In this document: piece by piece, positions 2,464 through 26,340 of the stretch
Layout: each line of letters opens with the position of its first letter
Position numbering within the stretch: the stretch's first letter is position 1
Source: a virus
IMG/VR virus record: IMGVR_UViG_3300046000_001028
Location: 1-26,340 of that record
Direction: 5' to 3' (one strand)
DNA length: 26,340 nucleotides
Program-made: the position numbers and the translations under genes
Notes under the pieces: generated by a model
What the model was told of the DNA's origin: nothing
The model's input: the letters and a program-made list of their open reading frames with translations, nothing else
Databases searched by the model: none

Positions 2464-3892
2464 CATTGAGATACCACTATATGGCGAGCAATCGACAATA
2501 CTAAATGATTGGCTCAGTACTGACAAACATTGTGTGGATATTGTTCCAGTGGGTAGCGGTAAGACATTTCTTGCCAGTATCGCCCTACCACTATTTGCTA
2601 GTGATGCGAGATACCATAAAGGTAAAGATATAATCTATAGTGCTCCAACAGGCGCAATGATTAAGTCACTGATTTGGGAACCTCTCAAGCATAGTTGCAT
2701 AAATCATTTTGGATTAAGTGATGGTAAAGATATTAATAATAGTGAGCTTACAATTAAGTTTCCTAATGGCATATTCATTCGCTGTAAAAGTGCAGAACAA
2801 CGTGAGAACTTACGAGGTCTTAACGTAGGCGTATGGGTCGCTGACGAAGCCGCATTGTACACGCAAGATACATTACAAGAAATTACTAATCGACTGCGCC
2901 CACGTGTTGGTCAAGCTGATACGCAAGGTAGATTGATTGTGATTAGTACGCCTAATGGTACAGGTCCACTGCACGATCTGTTCACGTTAGCATTAGAGAA
3001 TGATGAGAAGTATGTTGTTCGTCATTACAATTACTTGCAGATGCGTAGTGGTAATAAAAACTTTATTGATGAGCAGAAACGTATCATCAGTCCATTAAAG
3101 TTTAATCAAGATTATATGTGTCAGTGGGAAAGTGTTAGTGATGCGTTCTTCTACACTTGGGACAGACACAAATATACACGTGAAGTCAAAGACTTTGGTG
3201 GCGATTTATATACATTCCACGACTTTAACAAACGTGTTATGTGCGCTACTGTAGCACAAGTTAAAAAGAGTGGGCACAAAGAAGGCACAATAGAGATATT
3301 AAAAAGTTATGCGATACCTGATTGCAGTACAGAAGGTATTGCTGATGCGATTAGACAGGACTTTCCTAAACGCAGAATCAACAGCATTATCGATATGAGT
3401 GGCACACAAGTTAATCGTGATACAACAAGTCCCTTTGGCGTAACAGATCGTATCATCTTAGAGAAGTATGGCTTTACAATTGTGAATACACGTAAGAGTA
3501 ATCCATTAATTACAGATACAGATAACACAAGTAATGGCTTTATCAATCGTGGTGGCTTAGTCGTGCAACCTGATGATAAGTTTTTATTAGAAGCATTGCA
3601 AACATACCATTTCGAAGATGGTAGTCGTAAAAAGTTAGTCAAGTACAGTGAAAGTAGATACGCACACATAGACGGATTAGGTGACTGCATACGTTATGGC
3701 ATACATCATCTGTTCCCAATACAACACGACAGCTTACCAATCAATGAATTTGTAGGTATGGATCAACGTTTTGCAAGACAGAATAAACCCGGCTTAGAGC
3801 ATATGCCTGAGAGTCCACTATATCCAGGTGGACCGAGCTGGGAAGAGATTATGAATGGTGATGTAGTAGAAGATTATCAGGTGTGGAATTAA
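2456..3892 (+). CDS. terL: Terminase large subunit (ATPase-nuclease)
   Basis: This 478-residue protein powers DNA translocation into the prohead and cuts the concatemer. ATPase half: a Walker A-like PVGSGKT at residues 31-37, lacking the usual first glycine of GxxxxGKT. Walker B VGVWVADE lies at 124-131 (D130, catalytic E131) and the coupling motif IVISTPNGTG at 161-170. Nuclease half, RNase H-like: probable metal-binding aspartates in YTFHDFN (D256), IIDMSG (D313) and HIDGLGD (D407/D410). Length and domain order are normal for a phage large terminase. The ATG is embedded in the end of terS. The next gene, an HNH endonuclease, begins immediately after the stop, splitting the usual terL-portal junction. 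Confidence 0.93.
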   Translation: MNNIEIPLYGEQSTILNDWLSTDKHCVDIVPVGSGKTFLASIALPLFASDARYHKGKDIIYSAPTGAMIKSLIWEPLKHSCINHFGLSDGKDINNSELTIKFPNGIFIRCKSAEQRENLRGLNVGVWVADEAALYTQDTLQEITNRLRPRVGQADTQGRLIVISTPNGTGPLHDLFTLALENDEKYVVRHYNYLQMRSGNKNFIDEQKRIISPLKFNQDYMCQWESVSDAFFYTWDRHKYTREVKDFGGDLYTFHDFNKRVMCATVAQVKKSGHKEGTIEILKSYAIPDCSTEGIADAIRQDFPKRRINSIIDMSGTQVNRDTTSPFGVTDRIILEKYGFTIVNTRKSNPLITDTDNTSNGFINRGGLVVQPDDKFLLEALQTYHFEDGSRKKLVKYSESRYAHIDGLGDCIRYGIHHLFPIQHDSLPINEFVGMDQRFARQNKPGLEHMPESPLYPGGPSWEEIMNGDVVEDYQVWN

Positions 3893-3894
3893 TT

Positions 3895-4341
3895 ATGGGA
3901 AGATATCAAGGCGATAGTGGCACACTATTAGAACGACTATTAGATAAAGTTATAGTCAATGAAATTACTGACTGTTGGGAGTTTCAAGGTGGTAAGAACA
4001 ACATTGGTTATGGTATGATACGTGACGGCAAAAAGATGCGTACAAGTCATCGTGTAAGTTATGAAGAACATAAAGGCCCTATACCACACGGTCTATGCGT
4101 AATGCATAGCTGTGATAACCCAATCTGTTGTAATCCTAGTCATTTAAGCGTGGGAACTCATAAACAAAACACAAGAGATATGATGAACAAAGGTAGATCG
4201 AATCCATTCGGTAGCTATCTTGGCAATGGTGGTATGTTAGGTAAAAAACAACCTACAACATTATGCAAGTACTGCAATCGATCAATACCAAACAATGTTT
4301 ACGCTAGATTTCACGGAGATAAGTGTAAGCTTAAACCTTAA
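3895..4341 (+). CDS. HNH homing endonuclease, free-standing
   Basis: This 148-residue protein is counted from ATG 3895; a GTG at 3883 would add four residues and overlap terL. An HNH_3-type core spans about residues 27-95. It has a CWEF start, a conserved S-H-R, H71 in the VMHSCDN strand, paired cysteines around ICCNPSHL (N80, H83), then GTHKQNTRDM. A C-terminal knuckle C124-x2-C127-x12-H140-x3-C144 may bind zinc. Such enzymes make site-specific breaks and copy themselves into related phages. HNH proteins also assist packaging in some phages, and its place beside terminase allows that alternative. It lies between terL and portal with no intron signal that I can see. Confidence 0.9.
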   Translation: MGRYQGDSGTLLERLLDKVIVNEITDCWEFQGGKNNIGYGMIRDGKKMRTSHRVSYEEHKGPIPHGLCVMHSCDNPICCNPSHLSVGTHKQNTRDMMNKGRSNPFGSYLGNGGMLGKKQPTTLCKYCNRSIPNNVYARFHGDKCKLKP

Positions 4342-10602: not shown

Positions 10603-13122
10603 ATGGCAGATTTAAGTTATACAATCACGGTCAATTCTAGTGGTGCAGTTACTTCTTTAAAGAAAGTTGAAACACAAGTTAAAGCCGTCAATGATAGCTT
10701 TGCTAAATTAAAAACTGCAATTGCAGGAATAGCACTAACTGGTCTTATAACTAAAACAATACAGTTTGCAGACGCTATACAAGATGTAAGTGATGCTACT
10801 GGCATTGCAGTTGATAAAATTCTTGGTTTTAGTAGAGCAGTATCATTAAATGGTGGTACAGCAGATGATGCTAATACAGCATTACTAAAATTTAATGAAA
10901 CTATTGGTAAAGCAGGTGATGGCGCAGTAGGAGCGCAAGCCGCATTTGCTAGTATTGGTGTATCATTAAATGATTTAAGAACACTAAGCTCTGAAGATTT
11001 ATTTGTAAAAACAATTGATGGCATTGGTAAAGTTGGCGACCTTAGCGAACAAGCAAGATTAAAAACAGAATTGTTTGGTAAAAGTTTACGTACCACCAGT
11101 TTAACAGGTGTAAGTTCGCAGTTTGCACAAGCTACAAAAGAAAGCGAAGCATATGCAAGTAGCGTCAAAGCTGCCGCTGATTTACAAAACAAATTAGATA
11201 TGGCTTTTAAAACTTTACAGCAAAGCATATTAAAAACAATTGAGCCATTAGCAAACTTTGTTAATAAGTTAGAGCCAGAACAAATAGATAAGATAGTTAA
11301 AGCTATTGTAGAAATGAGTGTTGCACTAGGTAGTATTGCTGTTGCGGCTAAAGGTCTACAAATGTTAGGAGCATTAGCATTAGCAGTGGGTGGCGCATTT
11401 GCAACACTGGCTGCGGCAACAGCTACACAAACATTTAGATTTATGGCATTCTATCACGTAGTAAAACAAGCTTTGCCGGTGTTTACTAAGGTAGGCAGTG
11501 CAGTAGTTTTATTAGGCACTGCCGGTGGAACGCTCGCTGGCAGAATTGTATTATTAACTTCTAAGTTGCAAGGTGCATTGTTTATTCTTAAACAAGTTGG
11601 CGTTACTATTGCGCTTTTTGCTACTAAGTTCTTACCTAAATTATTAGGCCCTATAGGTATCATATATGGTGCGTTTGAAGCACTTAGATTAATTATATTG
11701 TCGGTCTTCAAAGTTGATATTATTGATGAATTTATAGGCGCTGTAAGTTCTGCATACAATAAATTAAAGGCGTTAGCAGGTTTTGCTCCGGAAGCGTATA
11801 AAGGCCCAGATACAGGCGATGAAACAGATAGACTTAAAAAGCGATATCCTGCGCCAAAAATGCCCGGCGGCAAAGACGTTCCTAGTGGTATAGCTAAACA
11901 AATTTCAGATGTACAACAGATTACAGAGAACTTTAAAGAACAAAATAAACAGACTAATATAAAATTAGCACTTGAAGCAAGTTTAGTAGGACTATCTGAA
12001 GATCAACGTGAAGTAATTCAAGGCATATACGAATTAGAAGAAAAGCGTGTTGCCGCAATAACACAATTGCAAGATAAACTAGCAAACTTAACACCGGATG
12101 AAAAGAAGCTTGGACTAGCTAAAGAAATTACAGCACAGATTGAAGCAGTCAACAAAGAGTATGGTGTGCAACAAGGCTTAGTTGTTAGTTACATTGAAAA
12201 AGCACAATCAGCAAGAATGATTGAAAAAGACCGAGCTAATACGCTTGAGTTGATTACGCAACAAATGCAACTTCAACAAGAACTTGCCGGCACAACTAGT
12301 GGCATTCACGGCGATATCGCTAGACAGATGCAAGATATTGGTTATAAAAACGCACAACGCGGCCAATCTCCTGCCCAGCAAATGTTGAACGATGTAAATA
12401 AAGCAATTGATGAATTCCAAGCGCAAGCCGCGGGTAAAATTATGTCTGTGTTTGAAACAGAAGATGGTTTTAGAAACATACAGCAGATGAATAGTGAATT
12501 AGAAATAATGTATGCTAAGAGCGAAGCATTACGCAAAGTTAAACAAGTTGATGCATTGCAAAGTCGTGATTGGGCTACAGGATGGCAAGATGCATTTGAT
12601 AGTTACTTAGATAATGCAACCAATGCATATAAAATTGCTGGTGAACAGTTTGCTGTAGTTACACAGGGTATGAACAGTGCAATCGACAAGTTTGTCGATA
12701 CAGGTAAAATGAGCTTTGGTGATTTTGCTACAAGTGTTATCAAAGATTTATTAAAGATTGAATTAAGAACACAAGCGGCAATGGCAATGTCAGCCTTTAA
12801 AGGTGCTGGTGGTGCTGGTGGTATATTGAGTACGATTGGAAGCTTCTTCGGTGGCTTCTTTGCAGGTGGTGGTCAGCCTCCAGTAGGTAAAGCAAGCATT
12901 GTTGGCGAGAACGGACCTGAGCTGTTCGTACCCAAGACAGCAGGAACAATCGTACCTAATGGCGGCGGTGGCGGATCGGGTGGTGGCGGTAATACATATA
13001 TTACAAACAATATAAGCGCAATGGATGCTAAATCAGTTGCACAATTGTTTGCAGAAAATCGTAAAGCACTATTTGGAACAGTAGAGCTTGCAAGAAAAGA
13101 AGTATCATACGGAGTAAGATAA
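10603..13122 (+). CDS. Tail tape measure protein
   Basis: This 839-residue protein sets tail length and is ejected ahead of DNA. Its N-terminus is helical. A long hydrophobic region with several possible membrane segments spans about residues 232-372 and may help channel formation. A charged coiled-coil region follows at about 465-565. The C-terminus carries VGENGPELFVP then GTIVPNGGGG (about 765-795), a hallmark of lambda gpH and related tape measures. At roughly 1.5 angstroms per residue, the length predicts a tail near 125 nm, close to lambda's. It lies directly downstream of the chaperone fusion, as expected. No peptidase domain is recognised. Confidence 0.93.
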   Translation: MADLSYTITVNSSGAVTSLKKVETQVKAVNDSFAKLKTAIAGIALTGLITKTIQFADAIQDVSDATGIAVDKILGFSRAVSLNGGTADDANTALLKFNETIGKAGDGAVGAQAAFASIGVSLNDLRTLSSEDLFVKTIDGIGKVGDLSEQARLKTELFGKSLRTTSLTGVSSQFAQATKESEAYASSVKAAADLQNKLDMAFKTLQQSILKTIEPLANFVNKLEPEQIDKIVKAIVEMSVALGSIAVAAKGLQMLGALALAVGGAFATLAAATATQTFRFMAFYHVVKQALPVFTKVGSAVVLLGTAGGTLAGRIVLLTSKLQGALFILKQVGVTIALFATKFLPKLLGPIGIIYGAFEALRLIILSVFKVDIIDEFIGAVSSAYNKLKALAGFAPEAYKGPDTGDETDRLKKRYPAPKMPGGKDVPSGIAKQISDVQQITENFKEQNKQTNIKLALEASLVGLSEDQREVIQGIYELEEKRVAAITQLQDKLANLTPDEKKLGLAKEITAQIEAVNKEYGVQQGLVVSYIEKAQSARMIEKDRANTLELITQQMQLQQELAGTTSGIHGDIARQMQDIGYKNAQRGQSPAQQMLNDVNKAIDEFQAQAAGKIMSVFETEDGFRNIQQMNSELEIMYAKSEALRKVKQVDALQSRDWATGWQDAFDSYLDNATNAYKIAGEQFAVVTQGMNSAIDKFVDTGKMSFGDFATSVIKDLLKIELRTQAAMAMSAFKGAGGAGGILSTIGSFFGGFFAGGGQPPVGKASIVGENGPELFVPKTAGTIVPNGGGGGSGGGGNTYITNNISAMDAKSVAQLFAENRKALFGTVELARKEVSYGVR

Positions 13123-13125
13123 GAA

Positions 13126-13821
13126 ATGGCCGGATTACAAACAATTATTAACAAGTGCAACGGTCTAGCAATAGATCGCCGCAAAGTTGTTGGCATACAG
13201 TTTACACGAAACGAAATACCACGTGTAAGTCAAACACCAACTAAGAATCCCTGGAAATTTACATTAGATATGCCAACTAGTTTAAGATATTATGAATGGC
13301 GCAGTTTGATGGAAGCATTAGATACATTAGATCGAATTACACCAGAAGTAATCACATTTAGTAACGTTCCTCAGTTAAGCTGGATATATAAATATCAAGG
13401 TGCGTTAAATCAAACTCAATTAAATGGACTGACTGTATCATCTTTTATAGGAAATCAATTAGTGCTAAATGGTTTGCCTGCAGTTGGCTCAGGTACAGTA
13501 TTGTTTGAACCAAATGATTTAATTCAGATTGGATCTAGTGGTGTTAATCCTTATCCATATACAAGTACGACACAAGTATTGCGTGGTAGTGGAGGAACTG
13601 TAACAGTAACAACTAGCAGACCAAATATTATTACAGCTGGTGTAGGCGGGCAAGGTATTATTGTTGGTAACAATTGCCAGTTCAATATGTTTTGCCCTAA
13701 TATGCCTACGTACAAGTTGATACCAGGCGGCTACGCCGGTAGTGGTACAACAACTACTAACAACGCAATATTAGAATGGTCTGATAGCTTTCAGTTATAC
13801 GAATTTGTTGGAGCCGCGTAA
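13126..13821 (+). CDS. Distal/minor tail protein
   Basis: This 231-residue beta-rich protein follows the tape measure, where distal tail or lambda gpM/L-like proteins are encoded. The N-terminal part contains FTRNEIPRVSQTPTKNPWKF and a helix with YEWRSLMEALDTLDRI. The central region (about residues 95-190) is a Gly/Thr/Val-rich beta segment with PNDLIQIG. The end, CPNMPTYKLIPGG then WSDSFQLYEFVG, looks like a small conserved domain. A GGAG lies 11 bases upstream. It probably forms the junction ring between tube and tip, but the family is not firmly recognised. Confidence 0.6.
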   Translation: MAGLQTIINKCNGLAIDRRKVVGIQFTRNEIPRVSQTPTKNPWKFTLDMPTSLRYYEWRSLMEALDTLDRITPEVITFSNVPQLSWIYKYQGALNQTQLNGLTVSSFIGNQLVLNGLPAVGSGTVLFEPNDLIQIGSSGVNPYPYTSTTQVLRGSGGTVTVTTSRPNIITAGVGGQGIIVGNNCQFNMFCPNMPTYKLIPGGYAGSGTTTTNNAILEWSDSFQLYEFVGAA

Positions 13822-14654
13822 TGGAAAATATTTCAGCAGTTGCCAATAATAAACCATTAGTAAACAATGCAGAGTTTGTAAGATTAACTATATACGATGA
13901 TATTACTCCTGTAGTAGCTACTAGTATTGTAGCTAACACGGCATATGAAATTAAAGTTGCTGGTACTACAAATTGGACAAGTATAGGTGCACCAAGTAAT
14001 ACTGTGGGCACTGTATTTTTAGCTAATGCTACTGGATCTGGTAATGGTACAGCGTATGAAGTTGAAGTTCATACTTTTAGCAGTGCTTATCAGTTTCAAA
14101 CAATTAATAATCAAATTTATACGCCGCTTGGCGGCTTAATGGCTGTTGGTCAACAACAGCGTGATATGCGTGTTACGTCAGCAGACACTAGCGTAAGCAT
14201 TAGCGGCATACCAACATATACAAATGTAGCTACTGTATTAGATACAAAAATTCGCGGTAGTAAATTAGAAATCACTAGAGGATTTTATGGTGGTGATGGC
14301 AATGTTGCTAATAATTATGTATTGACTAGCACTGCACAACGCTTTACTGGTATTGTAACTAACTATGCTATTACAGAAGATAGGCAAGAAAGTGATGATA
14401 ACTTTACTGTTGTATTAAATGCAAGTTCATATAAAAGTGTACTAGAAAATCGCATATCTGGTAGAAAAACTAATCCAGTTAGCTGGAAAGAATACGATCC
14501 AACAGATACGAGTATGGACCAAATATATTCGTTAGCGGATCAATGGTTTGATTTTGGTGGTAAGCCACTAACAGGCACAACAACAACAAGTCAAGCAAGT
14601 TCAACAACGTCAGTTACTCAAACAACAGACGCATACGTACAGGAGCAACCATAA
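13821..14654 (+). CDS. Tail hub/tip protein with inserted GTTNWTSIGA module
   Basis: This 277-residue protein probably forms part of the tail tip with its neighbours. The parent fold appears to run from FVRLTIYDD (19-27) to HTFSSAYQ (84-91), then YTPLGGLMAVGQQQRDMRVT, SISGIP and LDTKIRGSKLEITRGFYGG. Between its first two strands sits an extra segment at about residues 34-81, with the pattern AYEIKVAGTTNWTSIGA, NTVGTVF, TGSGNGTAYEV. I recognise this as a module recurring in marine phage structural proteins. The C-terminus is a Thr/Ser-rich linker. Both ends overlap neighbours as TAATG. The hub role is inferred from position. Confidence 0.65.
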   Translation: MENISAVANNKPLVNNAEFVRLTIYDDITPVVATSIVANTAYEIKVAGTTNWTSIGAPSNTVGTVFLANATGSGNGTAYEVEVHTFSSAYQFQTINNQIYTPLGGLMAVGQQQRDMRVTSADTSVSISGIPTYTNVATVLDTKIRGSKLEITRGFYGGDGNVANNYVLTSTAQRFTGIVTNYAITEDRQESDDNFTVVLNASSYKSVLENRISGRKTNPVSWKEYDPTDTSMDQIYSLADQWFDFGGKPLTGTTTTSQASSTTSVTQTTDAYVQEQP

Positions 14655-17600
14655 TGGGATGGTTTAAGAAAGCATTAGGATGGGCCGCAGTAATTACTGC
14701 CGCATTTGTAACCTTTGGTGGTTCATTAGCTGTTGCTGGAGCTTGGCTAACAAGCGGCAGTATCGGTGCTATGGTAGCAAGAACGGTATTAGCTATTGGT
14801 ATAAGCAAATTAGTAGGCAATAGAGCTGGAACAAAAGCCGCAGGCGGTGATGCCCCTAGTGCTCGTTTTCAGTTAACTCCTAGTACTATAAACAAAGTGC
14901 CTCTATTATATGGCTCTGGTTATTATGGCAGTGTAATGGTTGATGCTATTATTAGCACAGATAACAAAACAATGTGGTATGTAATGGCGTGTGCAGAAGC
15001 TACAGATACTGGTACGATTAGTTTCGGTGATATGTACATCGATAATAGATTGATTACATTTGATGGTGTAGATCAAACAAAAGTTGTTAGTTTAACTAAT
15101 AACGCAAATCCTCCGCAGGTTGATACTACTATTGCTGGCAATATGTATGTCTATAAATTTAACGATGGTTCTAGTAGTGGAGTCAACACCGCACAAACAG
15201 CTATACAGATTTTACAAGATCCTGATATACCATTGGCTAGACAATGGACAAGTACAAATACAATGACTGATACTGCATTTGTTATTGTAAAATTGATTTA
15301 CAATCCAGATAAACAGGTTGTTCGATTAGGAGAATTAAAAACACAAATAATCAATACACTTGATAAGCCTGGTGACGTATTGCTTGATTATATGCAAAAC
15401 ACAAGATATGGCTGTTCTATTCCGTTAAGTCAAATTGATACAGCTAGTTTAACTGCATTAAACACTTACAGTGACGAATTAATTACGTACACACCTGATA
15501 CTGGTGGTAGTGCTACACAAGCAAGATATCGCATTAATGGACCAATTGATTTAAGTACTAACTGTTTAAGTAATTTACAGGGGCTTGCTGATGCGTGTGA
15601 TAGTTGGATACAGTACAGTGAATTAACTGGTAAATGGAAAGTTGTTATTAACAAGCCATATACTGGCAGTTTAGGAAGTTTATACAGTGTTGATAGCAGT
15701 GTACTGATTGGTGGCATTGATATAACTCCTATTGACTTAAATCAAACTTATAACAGCATCGAAGTTCAATTTCCTAGCAGTGTAATTAAGGATCAAACAG
15801 TTGTAAGAGTAGTTGATTTAACTGATCCAACAACAGATTGGTATGAACCAACACTATTAAGTCCTAATGAACCAAATAACAGATTGACTATTCAATATCA
15901 AGTTGTTAACAATTATGTACAGGCAGTGTATCTTGGTGTACGTAGATTGCTACAAAGTAGAGAAGATTTAATCATTAACTGTAATTTAGATTACAGTGGT
16001 ATACAAATTGAAGCAGGAGATGTTGTACGTGTTACATTAGCAGAGTATGGTTGGGCGGATAAACTATTTCGTGTAAGCAGTGTTTCTGAAATCAAAAAAG
16101 AAGATGGCAATCTAGGTGCAAGTATAACTGCTTTTGAATATAACGGTACGATATACAACGATCAAGCTATACAAGATTATGTGCCAGAAGATAACACTGG
16201 ATTAAACGATCCTAATATATTCGATCAACCATCTACACCTATTGTAGCAGATGGATCAGCTACTCCTGGTTCTACTAACTATTTTACTGTAACTAGTACT
16301 GTACCACCAGTAGGTTCTACGCTGTATATGGATTTTAACTATGGTTTTTCTAGTAATGTAGAAACTCATACTAGTTATTCAACTGTATCTAGAGGCGATA
16401 GCACAATATATCCTGCAAATACAACGTTATCAATTAACGTTGCAGATTTAAGCGCAGGTAATTACTATTGGTCAACTACTGCTAGAAATATGTTTGCTGG
16501 TAGACAAAGTAATAGTTCTAATGTATATGCTTGGGGTGGACCAAGTATAACTCCATATAGTAATGTAGAATTCATTTGTGCAAGTAGCAGTGGCAATCTT
16601 ATAACAGTAGCTCCAAATACTGCAAACGTTGTTATAGGTCAAATAGTAACAGTAACTGGTGGAGTTGGAGCAGTAGCCGCAAATACAGTAGTATCTAATG
16701 TTAACAGCAATGTTACGTTTACTATTAATCCAGCTCCAACAACTCCGTTTGTTTGTGCTAATCTATTACTAACTGGCGGTGGCATTACATCTAATCAAAT
16801 TGCTAATGGTGCAATTACAGTTGGTAAGATTGCTAATGGTGCAGTTATAGCAGGTACTCTTGCTAATGGCGCTGTTACTGTAGGCGTACTTGCTAATGGT
16901 TGCGTTGTGTTTGGATCTATTGCCGCTAATGCGATCTCTGCTAATACAATTCAAGCAAATGCTATTACAGCAGGCACAATAGCCGCTAACGCAATTACAG
17001 CAGGCACAATAGCGGCTAATGCTATTACAGCTGGAACTATTGCCGCAAATGCTATTACTGCTAATACTATTGCGGCTAACGCAGTAACAGCCGGCACGAT
17101 TGCCGCTAATGCAATTACTGCTGGTTCAATAGCCGCTAATGCAGTAACAGCAAATACAATTGCGGCAAACGCAATTACTGCAGGCACGATAGCGGCAAAC
17201 GCTGTAACTGCTAACACAATTCAAGCTAACTCAATTGACGCTAGTAAAGTTCAAGCGTTTACATTAACTAGTGGTCAAATAGCGGCCGGTGGTATTGTTG
17301 CATCAAGTATTGCGGCTAATACAATTACATTTGAGAATTTAGTTATTGGTGCTGTAACACAAAGTAGGTCAACATTAAGTGATCCTATTGTAAAACCAAT
17401 ACCATTTACTAATATTACTGGCACGTGGCCAAACAATACACGATGCGTTGTACCAGCTGGTGGTGTAACTATCATACCAAGTACAGACCCACAAAGTAGT
17501 GCTAACTCAGAGTACACTGAAGGTAGTAGAATACAAGTTGGTTATAGTGTAAAGATGTATGTAGATCCGGGCAATGTTGCTAACGCAAGTCAAAACTGGG

Positions 17601-19117
17601 ACGATTACAATCTTGTAGAGGTATGGAAATCAGGTGCAAGTAGTGTATTTGATAGAGGTTTTAATACGATACGACAAGCATATGATATTACTGCTAATGC
17701 AACAAGTGCAAGCAATCAACAATTACACGCATTAGGATATTCGCCAGGTGGCTCAGATTTGTATAGTGGTGATGGTGGAAATGTTTGGCAAATATACAAT
17801 GGTAATAGCACAAGCAAGACTATTACTGGTGCTATGAGTTATGCTTCAACTACATTTTCAAGTTATCCAAGATATGTACAAAGTGGTTGTGTAGGACCTT
17901 TTCAGACTCCTGACTCGGGTACAGTAAACAGTGGTCTTGGTAGTCGTCAAGGTTCTAATCCTGCTCCTATCGTATGGGATCAGAACAACGGCACTGATGC
18001 TGTAAGATATCGCACATCAGCAAATAGCGCAATAACTGTTGGCTATCAAAATGATTTTTTAAGTATGGAGTTTACGCCACATACTGCTGGTAATGGATAT
18101 CCATACACAAGTGCTAATGCAGGTTATATATTTACAGGTACTAATGGTGATATCTTTTATAGCCCTACAGTTTTTGCTCCTAATGAGAACACAACAAGTG
18201 TTATGCGTAAAGAGAACGTACCAAATCTAATTAAAGATATGAATGCAAGTTATAGTGGCCCAGTATCTGGCACTACATATACTGCTGTGATTGTAGGACA
18301 AACAGGTACAGTATTGCGTAGTGAAAGAACATTAGGTGCTAGTGATTATAGTAGTAGCTGGACTGCAAAATCAATCTACATCGAGGGTAATACACAACGA
18401 CCACTATTAAGCGATTTATATTCAGTAGCAAGTGATAACACTACTAATAGTCCTGCAACAAGTAAGTGGGTCGCTGTTGGTCAATATGGTATGATACAAT
18501 ATAGTAGTGACGATGGCGATGCTTGGGATCAAGTATATCTTGGCAATAGTGTAAGCTGTGATTTTAATGGCGTCAAATATGGCAATGGTAAATGGGTTGC
18601 AGTAGGTGATGGCGGCAACATTTATGTAAGTAGTAATGCGGCTAACGTTGGTAGTTGGGTACAATTCGACACAGGAAATTTGTTATACACGAACGGCGCA
18701 AGCTATGGATCTATATATGGTGTTTATGGTAACGGTAATGTTAACACAAACACTAGACAGTTAAACACTGTAAACTATAATGGTCAATGGGATACTTGGA
18801 GCATTGGTGGTCAGGGCATAATATTGTATAGCAACGACAATGCTAATACATTTAAAGTAGCGTATGAACAAAGTCCTAGTGAAACATATGATTTAGAAAG
18901 AGTTACATTCTTTGGTAGCTGGCCTAATGTTGCCAATGTAAGCAGACCTCCTGCAGAACAGCAAATATTGAATAATCAAATATTCAGTGGTACAATTGTA
19001 GATACAAGTTATGTTGCTGGACAAGAGACAACATATTATCTAGTTATAGGTAATATGAACGGCAATACAATACTTGCTGGACAGATATTCTTGCAAGTAC
19101 AAGAAATAAAAAGATAA
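14654..19117 (+). CDS. J-like tail tip / central fibre protein
   Basis: This 1487-residue protein probably forms the tail tip and contacts the host. Residues 8-57 are hydrophobic, like a lambda gpI/J-type N-terminus. About 60-520 is a J-like core, with QTYNSIEVQFPSSVI and AGDVVRVTLAEYGWADKLFRV. An Ig/FN3-like beta domain lies at about 533-629 and a GQIVTVTGGVG module at about 638-710. Nineteen decapeptide repeats fill 711-900. A receptor-facing C-terminal region follows, with three or four propeller-like motifs such as SKWVAVGQYGMIQYSSDDG and GKWVAVGDGGNIYVSSN (about 1205-1450). The start overlaps the previous stop (TAATG). It is longer than lambda J (1132 residues) because of the repeats and propeller-like end. 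Confidence 0.85.
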   Translation: MGWFKKALGWAAVITAAFVTFGGSLAVAGAWLTSGSIGAMVARTVLAIGISKLVGNRAGTKAAGGDAPSARFQLTPSTINKVPLLYGSGYYGSVMVDAIISTDNKTMWYVMACAEATDTGTISFGDMYIDNRLITFDGVDQTKVVSLTNNANPPQVDTTIAGNMYVYKFNDGSSSGVNTAQTAIQILQDPDIPLARQWTSTNTMTDTAFVIVKLIYNPDKQVVRLGELKTQIINTLDKPGDVLLDYMQNTRYGCSIPLSQIDTASLTALNTYSDELITYTPDTGGSATQARYRINGPIDLSTNCLSNLQGLADACDSWIQYSELTGKWKVVINKPYTGSLGSLYSVDSSVLIGGIDITPIDLNQTYNSIEVQFPSSVIKDQTVVRVVDLTDPTTDWYEPTLLSPNEPNNRLTIQYQVVNNYVQAVYLGVRRLLQSREDLIINCNLDYSGIQIEAGDVVRVTLAEYGWADKLFRVSSVSEIKKEDGNLGASITAFEYNGTIYNDQAIQDYVPEDNTGLNDPNIFDQPSTPIVADGSATPGSTNYFTVTSTVPPVGSTLYMDFNYGFSSNVETHTSYSTVSRGDSTIYPANTTLSINVADLSAGNYYWSTTARNMFAGRQSNSSNVYAWGGPSITPYSNVEFICASSSGNLITVAPNTANVVIGQIVTVTGGVGAVAANTVVSNVNSNVTFTINPAPTTPFVCANLLLTGGGITSNQIANGAITVGKIANGAVIAGTLANGAVTVGVLANGCVVFGSIAANAISANTIQANAITAGTIAANAITAGTIAANAITAGTIAANAITANTIAANAVTAGTIAANAITAGSIAANAVTANTIAANAITAGTIAANAVTANTIQANSIDASKVQAFTLTSGQIAAGGIVASSIAANTITFENLVIGAVTQSRSTLSDPIVKPIPFTNITGTWPNNTRCVVPAGGVTIIPSTDPQSSANSEYTEGSRIQVGYSVKMYVDPGNVANASQNWDDYNLVEVWKSGASSVFDRGFNTIRQAYDITANATSASNQQLHALGYSPGGSDLYSGDGGNVWQIYNGNSTSKTITGAMSYASTTFSSYPRYVQSGCVGPFQTPDSGTVNSGLGSRQGSNPAPIVWDQNNGTDAVRYRTSANSAITVGYQNDFLSMEFTPHTAGNGYPYTSANAGYIFTGTNGDIFYSPTVFAPNENTTSVMRKENVPNLIKDMNASYSGPVSGTTYTAVIVGQTGTVLRSERTLGASDYSSSWTAKSIYIEGNTQRPLLSDLYSVASDNTTNSPATSKWVAVGQYGMIQYSSDDGDAWDQVYLGNSVSCDFNGVKYGNGKWVAVGDGGNIYVSSNAANVGSWVQFDTGNLLYTNGASYGSIYGVYGNGNVNTNTRQLNTVNYNGQWDTWSIGGQGIILYSNDNANTFKVAYEQSPSETYDLERVTFFGSWPNVANVSRPPAEQQILNNQIFSGTIVDTSYVAGQETTYYLVIGNMNGNTILAGQIFLQVQEIKR
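16784..17353 (+). repeat. Nineteen 30-bp repeats encoding decapeptides (ITAGTIAANA)
   Basis: Reading in frame from ATT 16784, every 30 bases encode a unit of the form (I/V)-T-A-(G/N)-T-I-A-A-N-A. Units 5-15 are close to perfect and units 1-4 and 16-19 are degenerate. The periodic hydrophobic residues suit a trimeric beta-helix or fibre shaft. Units with identical peptides use different codons (for example GCC, GCG and GCA alanines), so the array is old and maintained at protein level rather than freshly duplicated. Confidence 0.9.
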
Positions 19118-22897: not shown

Positions 22898-25800
22898 ATG
22901 GCTAATCAAGTAATCGTAACAAACACAGGCAACGTACAGGTTGCATTAACACCACCAGCTAATGTACAAGTGCAGATTAGTCGTGCGGCTATTGGTACTG
23001 TAAGCAACGTACCTACAGCTAACTTTGCTAACTATGCTGGTAATGTAACAGCAAGCAATCAACCTAACATTACAAGTTTAGGGACACTAACTACATTGAG
23101 TGCAACTGGTACAGCAACATTTGGTAATGTTATTGTAACCGGTAATCTACAAGTTGGTAATCTAGTAGCTAACAATGCAAACTTTGCTAACTTTGCTGGT
23201 GAAGCTTTTAATGTAAGTGGATCTAATGTAACTGGTGCAGTAGCAAACGCAACATATGCGAATGCGGCCAATACAGCCAATCTCGCAACATTTGCCACAA
23301 CTGCTAATGCGGTTGCTGGTGCTAATGTTTCTGGCACAGTAGCTAACGCAAACTATTCAGCATATAGTGGTCAAGCAAACACAGCTAATCTATCAACATA
23401 CGCAACAACTGCAAATAGCGTAGCACTTGCAAATGTAAGTGGCGCAGGTAATATTGCAAGTATCAATTTAGATGGCAACGTTGCAAATCTATTAACAGGC
23501 AATGGCACATTCGTTGCTATTCCAACAGTAAGTGCAAATGCTAACTACGCAAACTTTGCAGGCACCGCATTCAATGTAAGTGGAAGTAATGTATCTGGCG
23601 CAGTAGCTAATGCAACATTTGCGGCAAACGCAGGTAATGCAAATATAGCAAATACAGCAAACAGTGTTGCAGTAGCTAATGTAAGTGGCATAGGTAACAT
23701 TGCTACTGTAAACTTAGATGGCAACGCAAGTAACATTCTTTATGGTAATGGCGCATTTAGTGCCGCACCAATTATATCTAATGTAGCAAATGCAAACTTT
23801 GCTAACTTTGCTGGAACAGCTTTTAGCGTAAGTGGATCAAATGTAAGTGGTGAAGTTGCAAATGCCGCATATTCCAATGCCGCTAACACAGCTAATCTTG
23901 CAACATACGCTACAACTGCAAATGCAGTAGCAGGAGCCAACGTAAGTGGTACAGTAGCTAACGCAACATTCGCATTAGATGCTGGCAATAGCAATTTAGC
24001 TAATACAGCAAACAGTGTAGCAGTTGCTAACGTAAGTGGCATAGGTAACATTGCTACTACAAATTATGATGGTAACACAAGTAATGTATTATATGGTAAT
24101 GGTGGTTTCTACGCATTGCCAACAGTTAGTAATGTAGCAAATGCAAACTATGCAAATTTTGCTGGTACTGCATTCAGTGTAAGTGGCAGTAATGTTTCGG
24201 GTGCAGTAGCTAATGCGACATACGCAAACGATGCAGGTAATGCTAACCTAGCAAATACAGCTAATAGTGCAACAGTAGCCAACAGTGCTAATTCAGTAGC
24301 AGTGGCTAACGTTAGTGGTATAGGTAACATTGCAACAGTAAACTTAGATGGTAACGCAAGTAATATATTATATGGTAATGGTGTATTTGCAACAACTCCA
24401 ATTATATCTAACGTAGCTAATGCTAACTATGCTAACTTTGCTGGTGAGGCATTTAATGTAAATGCTAGTAACATAACTGGCACTGTTGCCAATGCAAATT
24501 ATAGTGCATATGCAGGAGAAGCAAATACAGCTAACTTAGCTACATTCGCAACTACAGCCAATGCAGTAGCAGGTGCTAATGTAAGTGGTACAGTAGCTAA
24601 CGCAACATTTGCATTAGATGCTGGTAATGCTAATCTAGCAAATCTTGCTACATATGCAACAACAGCAAATAGTGTAGCTGGCGCTAATGTAAGTGGTGAA
24701 GTAGCTAATGCAAACTTTGCAAGTTATTCTAATATTGCCGCAAGTGCAAACAGTGTAGCATTGGCCAATGTTGTTGGCATTGGTAACATTGCAAATATCA
24801 ATTTAGATGGTTCTAGTTCAAATGTATTGTTTGGCAATGGAGTGTTTGCTCCTGAATCTACAAGTATTGCAAACGCTAACTATGCTAACTTTGCTGGTAA
24901 CTTAATCAATGGAACAAGCAACATTAGTATTCCTACAGCAAGTAGCAACATACTAATCAGCACAAATGGTAATGCTAATGTTGTTGATATTCGTGCAGAA
25001 GGTTCATTAGGAATAAGACCACCAGCACAAGGTCCATTGAATGCACTACGCATTGAAACATATGGTCGTAGTGGTAATACTGGCGCACAACGCATTAGTA
25101 GTTTTAGATTTCGTGGCAACAGTACAACTCCATTAAGTGTTGAGCCCGGTGATTACACAATGGAAATACTAACTGCTGGCTCTAATGGTACAGCATTACA
25201 AACAAATAGTTTAGCATTTATTCGTGGTCAGGTTGGTAACTCATATACAGCAAACAGTGCTAACATTCCATTAGGTTGGCAAGTAACAGTAAATGATACA
25301 AATGGCGGTATAAACAATCAAGGTAAAACACATAACTTTTATAGTAATGGCAATGTTAGTTTTGCTAATGTTATATTTGCTGACGGTGGTGGATTAAGTA
25401 ACATTGTAGGTGCTAACGTAACTGGTCAAGTACCATATGCGGCAGTTGCAAATAGTGTAGCAGTAGCTAACGTTAGTGGTATAGGCAATATTGCTACAAT
25501 TAATTTAGATGGCAATGTTAGTAATGTGTTAACTGGTAATGGTACGTTCGTTGCTATTCCTAATGCAAGTGCTAATGCCAACTATGCAAACTTCGCAGGT
25601 AATTTAATTAATGGCACAAGCAATATCTCTATTCCTATTGCAAATGGAACGATAGCGTTTAGTGTTAACAATACTGCAAATTTAGTTATGTTAGAGAATG
25701 GTGGATTTATGAACACATTCCCAACAAGTTCAGTAGTTAATATGTTGCGTATTAATACTTTTGGTAATCCATTAAGTGATGCACATCGTATTGCGTGGGC

Positions 25801-26340
25801 TAGAGCTAGAGGTAGTAATACTAGTCCAACAAGTGTACAGGGAGGTGATAACATAGGCTCGTTGAGCTACTTTGCACATAATGGTGCTAACTATCAAACT
25901 AACAGTGTTGGTTTTATTCGTGGCAGAGTAGATAGTAGTTATACTGCAAACGGTGCTAACATACCAATCGGCTTTCAAATTACTGTAAATGATACTAACG
26001 GTGGTATCAATAATCAATCAAAAACTCATAACTTTTTTGCTAATGGTACTGCAAGTTTTGCAAGTTCTGTAGAAGCTAGTTCATATAGCGCAAGTGGAAA
26101 TATTGCTGGTGGTAATTTAAGTACTGGTGGCACATTATCAGTTAGTGGTAATACTAGTTTAGGAAGTTTATCTACCAGCACATCAGTAGATGTAAAAGGT
26201 AACAACTCTACTGGAGTTTTTTTATTGAATGGCGTTCAATTTAGTGTTATACAAACTGAAGCAAATGGCGCCGCTGGATATGCTCCATTCTTTTTTAGAA
26301 CGTTTCAATCTAATAATGATCCCATACCGGCAGCAAATCT
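22898..26340 (+). CDS. Large repetitive tail fibre protein 2 (3' truncated by window)
   Basis: This frame is open from ATG 22898 to the end of the window, giving at least 1147 residues. The N-terminus (VQVALTPPANVQVQISRAAIG) parallels that of fibre 1 and probably binds the adaptor. The shaft, to about residue 620, is built from Ala/Asn-rich motifs: NANFANFAG(T/E)AFNVSGSNVSG, ATTANAVAGANVSGTVANA and six IGNIATVNLDGN-type units. Two related beta domains follow, each with FIRG...SYTAN.ANIP and TVNDTNGGINNQ. The end region (LLNGVQFSV) begins another domain. It starts one base after the previous stop. Function is a long adsorption fibre; the receptor-binding tip is outside the window. Confidence 0.85.
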   Translation, partial: MANQVIVTNTGNVQVALTPPANVQVQISRAAIGTVSNVPTANFANYAGNVTASNQPNITSLGTLTTLSATGTATFGNVIVTGNLQVGNLVANNANFANFAGEAFNVSGSNVTGAVANATYANAANTANLATFATTANAVAGANVSGTVANANYSAYSGQANTANLSTYATTANSVALANVSGAGNIASINLDGNVANLLTGNGTFVAIPTVSANANYANFAGTAFNVSGSNVSGAVANATFAANAGNANIANTANSVAVANVSGIGNIATVNLDGNASNILYGNGAFSAAPIISNVANANFANFAGTAFSVSGSNVSGEVANAAYSNAANTANLATYATTANAVAGANVSGTVANATFALDAGNSNLANTANSVAVANVSGIGNIATTNYDGNTSNVLYGNGGFYALPTVSNVANANYANFAGTAFSVSGSNVSGAVANATYANDAGNANLANTANSATVANSANSVAVANVSGIGNIATVNLDGNASNILYGNGVFATTPIISNVANANYANFAGEAFNVNASNITGTVANANYSAYAGEANTANLATFATTANAVAGANVSGTVANATFALDAGNANLANLATYATTANSVAGANVSGEVANANFASYSNIAASANSVALANVVGIGNIANINLDGSSSNVLFGNGVFAPESTSIANANYANFAGNLINGTSNISIPTASSNILISTNGNANVVDIRAEGSLGIRPPAQGPLNALRIETYGRSGNTGAQRISSFRFRGNSTTPLSVEPGDYTMEILTAGSNGTALQTNSLAFIRGQVGNSYTANSANIPLGWQVTVNDTNGGINNQGKTHNFYSNGNVSFANVIFADGGGLSNIVGANVTGQVPYAAVANSVAVANVSGIGNIATINLDGNVSNVLTGNGTFVAIPNASANANYANFAGNLINGTSNISIPIANGTIAFSVNNTANLVMLENGGFMNTFPTSSVVNMLRINTFGNPLSDAHRIAWARARGSNTSPTSVQGGDNIGSLSYFAHNGANYQTNSVGFIRGRVDSSYTANGANIPIGFQITVNDTNGGINNQSKTHNFFANGTASFASSVEASSYSASGNIAGGNLSTGGTLSVSGNTSLGSLSTSTSVDVKGNNSTGVFLLNGVQFSVIQTEANGAAGYAPFFFRTFQSNNDPIPAAN
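23447..25519 (+). repeat. Six dispersed G-N-I-A-x(2)-N-(L/Y)-D-G repeats in fibre 2
   Basis: Units encoding GNIA..N(L/Y)DG(N/S)..N(L/I/V)L.GNG.F begin at 23447, 23693, 24044, 24323, 24782 and 25484. The spacings are 246, 351, 279, 459 and 702 bases, all multiples of three, with variable numbers of TAN/ANF/AGANVSG blocks between them. This is a mosaic of in-frame block duplications and losses. Confidence 0.8.
24869..25366 (+). repeat. Fibre 2 internal domain duplication, copy 1
   Basis: About 166 residues run from ANANYANFAGNLINGTSNIS to NGNVSFA, including a helix-poor beta domain with ALRIETYGRSGN, AFIRGQVGNSYTANSANIP and TVNDTNGGINNQGKTHNF. Copy 2 lies 702 bases downstream at its left end and 696 bases downstream at its right end. 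Confidence 0.8.
25571..26062 (+). repeat. Fibre 2 internal domain duplication, copy 2
   Basis: About 164 residues run from ANANYANFAGNLINGTSNIS to NGTASFA, with MLRINTFGNPLS, GFIRGRVDSSYTANGANIP and TVNDTNGGINNQSKTHNF. The edges are nearly identical to copy 1, while the centre has diverged strongly, suggesting that surface residues vary between copies. Confidence 0.8.

Follow-up and report, generated by a model that had tools for sequence, protein, structure and literature searches.

An apparently undescribed 46-residue insertion domain in a phage tail hub protein and its possible role as a surface decoration

Why does a phage tail hub protein carry a foreign-looking stretch of some four dozen residues between two of its strands, and did that stretch reach it as a unit from other virion genes? 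The question was raised by a first-pass annotation of the window, by which we mean the whole stretch of DNA analysed here (26,340 nucleotides, positions 1 to 26,340 of the IMG/VR virus record IMGVR_UViG_3300046000_001028). On balance, we regard the segment as one instance of a 46-residue insertion domain that appears to be undescribed, is predicted to fold on its own and may serve as a surface decoration. Confidence is high that the segment is a module and that it was inserted; that it binds something, as a weak surface contact, is a more tentative proposal.

Fold comparison of a predicted structure identifies the product of 13821-14654 as a tail hub, in agreement with the first-pass annotation. 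The full-length AF2 model is of moderate confidence (built from a 51-sequence alignment, mean pLDDT 70.3) and VIA matched it to the solved tail tips of T5 (7zqp_b; Z 12.3, rmsd 3.6, 145 aligned), GTA (6tba_7A, Z 11.7), R4C (8gtc_P, Z 11.2) and lambda (8iyk_L, Z 10.5). PHROG 2048 (‘tail protein’) also matches hub residues 93-270 (E 1.9e-10). The gene order in the window is tape measure, a 231-aa gene, hub and J-like gene, and Methylophilaceae phage P19250A has a similar order, plus one small gene ahead of J. A position between the tape measure and J-like genes is as expected for a tail hub of the gp27/GTA hub/lambda gpL type. The genes concerned are:

10603..13122, + strand: tape measure protein, upstream of the hub (PF09718, E 8.2e-16; PHROG 24)
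13821..14654, + strand: tail hub protein, 277 aa, the module carrier (ORF including stop; PHROG 2048; fold comparison)
14654..19117, + strand: J-like tail protein, 1487 aa, directly downstream of the hub (PHROG 5616 tail fiber protein, E 4.1e-15)

Elsewhere in the window, inspection of the translation by eye showed many AITAGTIAANA-type repeats in the J-like protein (16769-17217) and, at 22898-26338, a long open-ended protein built from ANYANFAG / ANVSG repeats that may be a tail fibre. From motifs seen by eye, we take the ORF at 3883-4341, between terminase-like and portal-like ORFs, to resemble an HNH endonuclease, and the ORF at 110-478 presumably resembles a NUMOD-type protein.

The hub ORF reads LTIYDD...[ATSIVANTAYEIKVAGTTNWTSIGAPSNTVGTVFLANATGSGNGTA]YEVEVHTFSSAYQ, carriers of the window’s clade read ...YEVEVHTFSSAYQ, and hub relatives without the segment read, for example, LTIYNEYGNTANNNVYTFSSSYQ. 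The net length difference between carriers and non-carriers is 47 residues (alignment A3), close to the roughly 48 first estimated, while the interval given for them, 13920-14063, lies a few residues off the unit defined by the module profile. The right edge of the MAFFT gap is ambiguous, because GNGTA at the module end resembles GNTAN in the empty loop. The profile detects the module in the window with E 3.8e-25 for 13917-14063. The two delimitations are:

13905..14045, + strand: net insertion of 47 residues, hub residues 29-75 (MAFFT alignment; edges uncertain by several residues)
13917..14054, + strand: insertable module of 46 residues (profile boundaries)

The expectation that the hub would read through smoothly without the segment was confirmed by its relatives. 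Among the 37 loci from a first IMG/VR scan with the hub protein, the segment was present in ten and absent from 26, and the remaining locus was a fragment. A wider scan brought the total to 73 distinct hub ORFs, from which the fragment L041 and the shortened L006 were left out to give a tree of 71 rows, calculated with the insert columns excluded. The module is present in 34 of these 71 ORFs and absent at the same point from the other 37, including that of P19250A; it is dispensable in the hub, as those 37 proteins lack it. A second small hub indel, GGDGNVA at residues 157-163, lies in another loop, and its presence among relatives is independent of the module.

Structure prediction, which the first-pass annotation had suggested as a check for a separate domain, returned one. 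Modelled alone in AF2, the module is predicted to fold autonomously (pLDDT 98.0, pTM 0.79) into a short helix, a strand at 10-15, a helix at 21-24 and strands at 34-36 and 46-48. Other phage proteins with predicted structures in BFVD show the same fold, the first three with TM to query of 0.95, 0.90 and 0.94. In the full hub model, the module occupies a hairpin between strands 16-25 and 77-87, and its last strand runs into the hub; exposure of this loop on the assembled tail is assumed, since that model is moderate (pLDDT 70.3). The predicted elements are:

13866..13895, + strand: hub strand before the insertion, residues 16-25 (AF2 full-protein model)
13941..13958, + strand: module strand 1, YEIKVA (AF2 model of module alone)
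13974..13985, + strand: module short helix (AF2 model of module alone)
14013..14021, + strand: module strand 2 (AF2 model of module alone)
14049..14057, + strand: module strand 3, which runs on into hub strand 77-87 when the whole protein is modelled (AF2, both models)
14049..14081, + strand: hub strand after the insertion, residues 77-87 (AF2 full-protein model)

Conservation marks out the same unit. The conserved block in 93 aligned context representatives is the module, with the consensus AGSFV.G..Y.I..VGTTDFTLIGA.SNTVGV.FTATG.GSGTGTA in 71 of them. Across 75 contexts, information drops sharply outside the 46 columns, from 0.66-4.62 bits within the module to at most 0.38 bits beyond three residues; directly outside, V-T is favoured before and T after, and then the signal stops. 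Twelve of the 46 columns hold one residue in (rounded) 100% of the 71 representatives, with the proviso that three of them (16, 18 and 24) were in the search pattern and two ends were favoured by row choice. Conservation of columns 16-24, all of which belonged to the search pattern, is thus partly selected for, as is that of the end columns, because representatives were chosen at full length. Seven columns are invariant in the 98-row module alignment (A6, the window plus 97 rows). The 232 distinct copies supplied 180 candidates for it, which thinning reduced to 117; of these, 20 were omitted, namely 17 genome-contig copies, L006 and a single copy from each of L230 and L272. In complete ORFs, all but one of the 153 copies lie internally, with at least 20 residues on each side counted from the first Met. 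Low complexity or chance as the origin of the matches was rejected, since the reversed ORFs of the collected loci gave 0 matches at E≤0.01, against 238 forward ORFs at E≤1e-4.

Searches with the segment alone place the module in many different predicted virion proteins, between unrelated flanks and nearly always internally. In 50,697 phage records, tblastn with a 51-residue query found it in three, in unrelated proteins, and a second query returned the same three; the BLAST low-complexity filter may hide some further copies there. The proteins are fibre-like in Cyanophage S-TIM54 (Red Sea), and head-like (PHROG 240) and ‘stabilization’ proteins in two spring-source records. Pattern scans of IMG/VR confirmed at least 481 and then at least 570 stretches (481/600 and 570/600 pattern matches). 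The first-pass statement that this module also occurs in unrelated marine phage structural proteins is borne out by S-TIM54, by the two spring-water records and by hundreds of IMG/VR stretches taken without regard to habitat.

From the collected loci, 291 copies were obtained in 238 ORFs, 232 of them distinct, falling into 93 flank clusters. Copy counts are lower bounds, because HMMER default filters missed the copy in L214. The clusters, made by BLASTP of up to 120 residues each side of the module, include three weak genome loci (L222-L224) and are over-split, with seven of the 93 representatives matching PHROG 3287. Two or more module matches, and up to nine, were present in 19 of 44 virus records, namely the window and 43 records picked by hand among 80 loci. 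Twenty parents were scanned singly and included a distal tail protein (PHROG 1302), head-tail adaptor Ad2 (PHROG 211), J (PHROG 31/5616), a relative of the P22 tail accessory factor (PF11650), an internal virion protein and a tail spike; at E≤0.001, nine of the 20 remained without a PHROG hit. The 93 representatives, each comprising the module and at most 230 residues on either flank, match 82 PHROG families, and among the matches listed are head closure, major head, baseplate wedge, distal tail and tail spike proteins, as well as tail tube PF18906; these matches cover module and flanks together and imply nothing about the position of the module relative to the matched domain.

Empty sites were found in three families besides the hub. 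They are the neck adaptor Ad2 (carrier L091; S-SKS1 and P-SSM2 without the module), the ‘stabilization protein’ of PHROG 3287 (carriers L293 and MW202481; Venkman and MW202710 without) and the distal tail protein (carrier L272; PMBT28 and 9g without). Two further candidates were dropped: the structural protein of MW202615, which has a partial relative only, and the L104 family, in which the nearest phage relative, C75C1, has a different extra sequence at that place. The counterpart of the L104/L310 site in C75C1 looks as if the site takes varied inserts.

The idea that the module moves between virion genes agrees with these unrelated virion parents and their empty sites, but is too narrow, as bacterial proteins carry it as well. 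Among GTDB contigs, 22 module loci were found; 19 of the 22 are titled MAG, so that viral contigs assigned to bacterial bins may be among them. PilY1 proteins of type IV pili are carriers: in L208, two copies follow the propeller match, and in L211, four precede it; L312 has one copy in a protein assigned to PilY1 by eye from its N-terminus. Other bacterial carriers include FG-GAP repeat proteins (L205, L212), a DUF6531 protein and fn3 and GEVED proteins, and three of ten bacterial carriers scanned had no Pfam match. In the cultured isolate Limnohabitans radicicola JUR4, the module lies at L214 4001-4138 in a very long ORF, whose label ‘autotransporter-like’ rests on repeats; this copy was found by HMMER --max. 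The module is present in two of 299 genomes of that isolate’s family, L214’s own included, and in eight of 181 genomes of the family to which L205’s genome belongs, three of them already known.

How such a module might come to sit in so many proteins can be outlined as follows. It would occupy a loop without breaking the host fold and spread rarely, by non-homologous recombination into loops. Once in place, it would pass to descendants or be lost, relatives would exchange it at a shared site, and tandem duplication would occasionally follow. As a surface decoration, the less certain part of the outline, it would provide an extra weak contact to a glycan, the cell envelope or a particle; in bacteria it might offer the same extra contact to a pilus tip or adhesin, and in this phage the decorated protein would be the tail hub. 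Decoration is suggested by the presence of the module on many virion parts and in bacterial adhesins with a fixed pattern of conserved residues. A bolder version, to which we give limited credence, would make it a ligand-binding micro-domain common to uncultured phage particles and bacterial adhesins (PilY1, autotransporters), which both sides would insert in loops of exposed proteins, tuning attachment to a shared environmental target through variable copy number; it would have been overlooked because isolates rarely carry it and a survey of protein mosaicism stopped at 50 residues.

The main rival to a weak surface-binding decoration, which is the likeliest reading, is a tolerated neutral spacer: a compact, stable mini-fold that loops accommodate, conserved for folding only and without a ligand. 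Its absence from 37 of 71 hub relatives fits such a spacer, as do shortened and diverged copies lying beside full ones and the spread over head, neck, tail and fibre families, which suggests no single target. A purely structural fold might, however, be expected to drift more than one with 12 of 46 columns near-fixed (in part through the search pattern and the choice of rows) and seven invariant in 98 rows, and tandem arrays and carriage by bacterial adhesins suggest use. We consider the spacer possible but somewhat less probable than decoration.

For the hub itself, a different alternative must be weighed, namely that the segment is an ancestral part lost by some relatives, so that no movement into the hub is needed. 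The fixed site and matching phylogeny that the first-pass annotation had named as evidence against movement are seen in part: all 34 carriers have the module at one site, but 37 relatives lack it, and its distribution on the tree needs five changes, at least three of them forced by well-supported branches. The deepest in-group branches are carriers, and in 30 of 33 hub copies tested (near-copies included) the nearest module sits in another hub, both of which favour ancestry. The equivalent proportions are often half or fewer in non-hub contexts (7/14, 5/10 and 3/8 in some of them), and hub copies L013 and L014, once matches within their own clade are set aside, have close matches in another protein as well. 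Such relationships are poorly resolved by 46 residues. Against an ancestral origin, the most distant relatives, the outgroups P19250A and L085 (both on long branches), are without the module; together with the insertions in three other families, this calls for a gain at some earlier point. From its single site, the carrying deepest branches and the five changes, the module looks old in the hub, probably a long resident with losses or same-site exchange rather than a fresh insertion, and no fresh insertion is visible in this family because the site is fixed there. Ancestry in the hub is a minority option in our judgement, and is compatible with the insertion-domain explanation for the other proteins.

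A less probable alternative is that the module cements the particle, contributing to assembly or stability through contacts inside it rather than facing outward. Hub, neck, distal tail, tube and head families are places where extra contacts could stabilise a particle, but one sequence would then need to fit many unrelated interfaces, and the module is also found in bacterial PilY1, FG-GAP and autotransporter-like proteins, which have no capsid. We think cementing unlikely.

The first-pass annotation further proposed movement as a unit. The separately predicted fold, inserted in the hub hairpin, favours this, but movement was not recent in the cases sampled. Between 85 context representatives, identity at codon positions 1/2/3 is 0.71/0.72/0.32, and identical residues use the same codon at a frequency of 0.339, compared with 0.334 expected from pooled usage; synonymous sites are thus saturated, indicating that movement is mostly old. 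Recent DNA-level transfer between contexts was looked for and not found: when 46-residue copies from different contexts were compared in 19,076 pairs, nucleotide identity never exceeded 77%. The closest pair within one ORF reaches 87% (L208), and repeated copies inside ORFs show that local duplication occurs. Up to six copies were seen in one ORF (L116), with L116, L121 and L230 all multi-copy, and some of their copies end after about 30-40 residues with the next copy directly adjoining. The third-position G+C of the module follows that of the host ORF (r = 0.91). These patterns indicate that the module is a protein under purifying selection that probably moved long ago, and not a DNA element. 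Selfish DNA that happens to be in frame (a mini-intein, homing element or Rickettsia-palindromic-element-like sequence) might account for in-frame occurrence in many unrelated genes and for several copies in some genomes, but we reject it as highly improbable, since the module persists as protein rather than as DNA: the window copy shows no inclination to form a hairpin (DNA fold z = 0.01) and is not flanked by repeats of ≥10 bases, synonymous sites are saturated and third-position G+C tracks the host gene. Inteins, moreover, are far larger than 46 residues.

Read as an insertion domain with a possible decorating role, the segment represents a very small, new-looking addition to parts that phages put on their particles, present in at least 570 IMG/VR stretches, yet seen in just three of 50,697 phage records. 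Because different phages carry the module in proteins of the head, neck, tail or fibre, a decorating role can be tested by comparing proteins with and without it, and the bacterial carriers, which resemble pilus-tip proteins and adhesins, provide a lead to any ligand. The predicted stable, insertable 46-residue fold could also serve as a scaffold for loop grafting.

Searches of Pfam, PHROG, NCBIfam and the PDB gave nothing that convincingly matches the module. Scans of 22 copies against Pfam, PHROG and NCBIfam gave weak unrelated matches only (best E 0.031, 0.074 and 0.024), and, at the sequence level, the PDB produced a single match of 12 residues, to a ribosomal L21 (E 0.64), so that these libraries supply no clue to a ligand. 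Structural comparison with the PDB, using a 49-residue query that is hard for such programs, yielded one Foldseek match at E≤10 (E 4.7) and 0 of five chains with Z≥2 in VIA. A literature search that included the motif GTTDFT and S-TIM54 showed no description of the module among the entries listed; most subscription papers lay outside it, and unpublished status is not implied.

Among known systems, viral decoration proteins such as Hoc, pb10 and Dec are separate proteins, whereas the module is an internal insertion in a core tail protein. The accessible text of one source describes decoration proteins as optional additions on the particle surface (PMC7602432). Carbohydrate-binding modules of family 5/12 are likewise small modules in secreted and virion proteins, and one context representative carries a CBM_5_12 match, but none of the 22 module copies matches that profile.

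The closest functional parallel, by analogy, would be the Ig-like domains of phages (I-set, Big_2, fn3/PKD), which are also small, common to unrelated virion proteins and proposed to confer surface stickiness. According to Fraser et al., phage Ig-like domains are reportedly often terminal, frameshift-made extensions; the module, in contrast, is internal in 152 of 153 copies in complete ORFs and occurs in proteins of the neck, the hub and the distal tail. It also differs in having 46 residues and a predicted fold that is not an Ig beta sandwich, and none of 22 copies matched an Ig family at E≤1, although HMMER filters drop most matches above 0.1. Phage K1F adheres better to epithelia when it displays adhesins with Ig-like domains, according to the accessible part of that report (PMC13370021).

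In evolutionary terms, the module resembles the domain mosaicism described by Smug et al. (2023), whose accessible text reports that phage proteins with no other relationship can have fragments in common and that recent examples involve receptor-binding, neck and lysis proteins (PMC10684548). It, too, is a similar fragment in otherwise unrelated proteins, as detected here with HMMER and BLAST rather than HH-suite. As far as that text describes it, the survey covered 4,548 RefSeq genomes and its sequence-based measure counted aligned fragments of at least 50 residues (PMC10684548). With 46 profile positions, the module falls under that minimum, and with its presence in three of 50,697 phage records it would probably escape such a survey. 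Studies of mosaicism in phage proteins therefore need a separate search for fragments of fewer than 50 residues.
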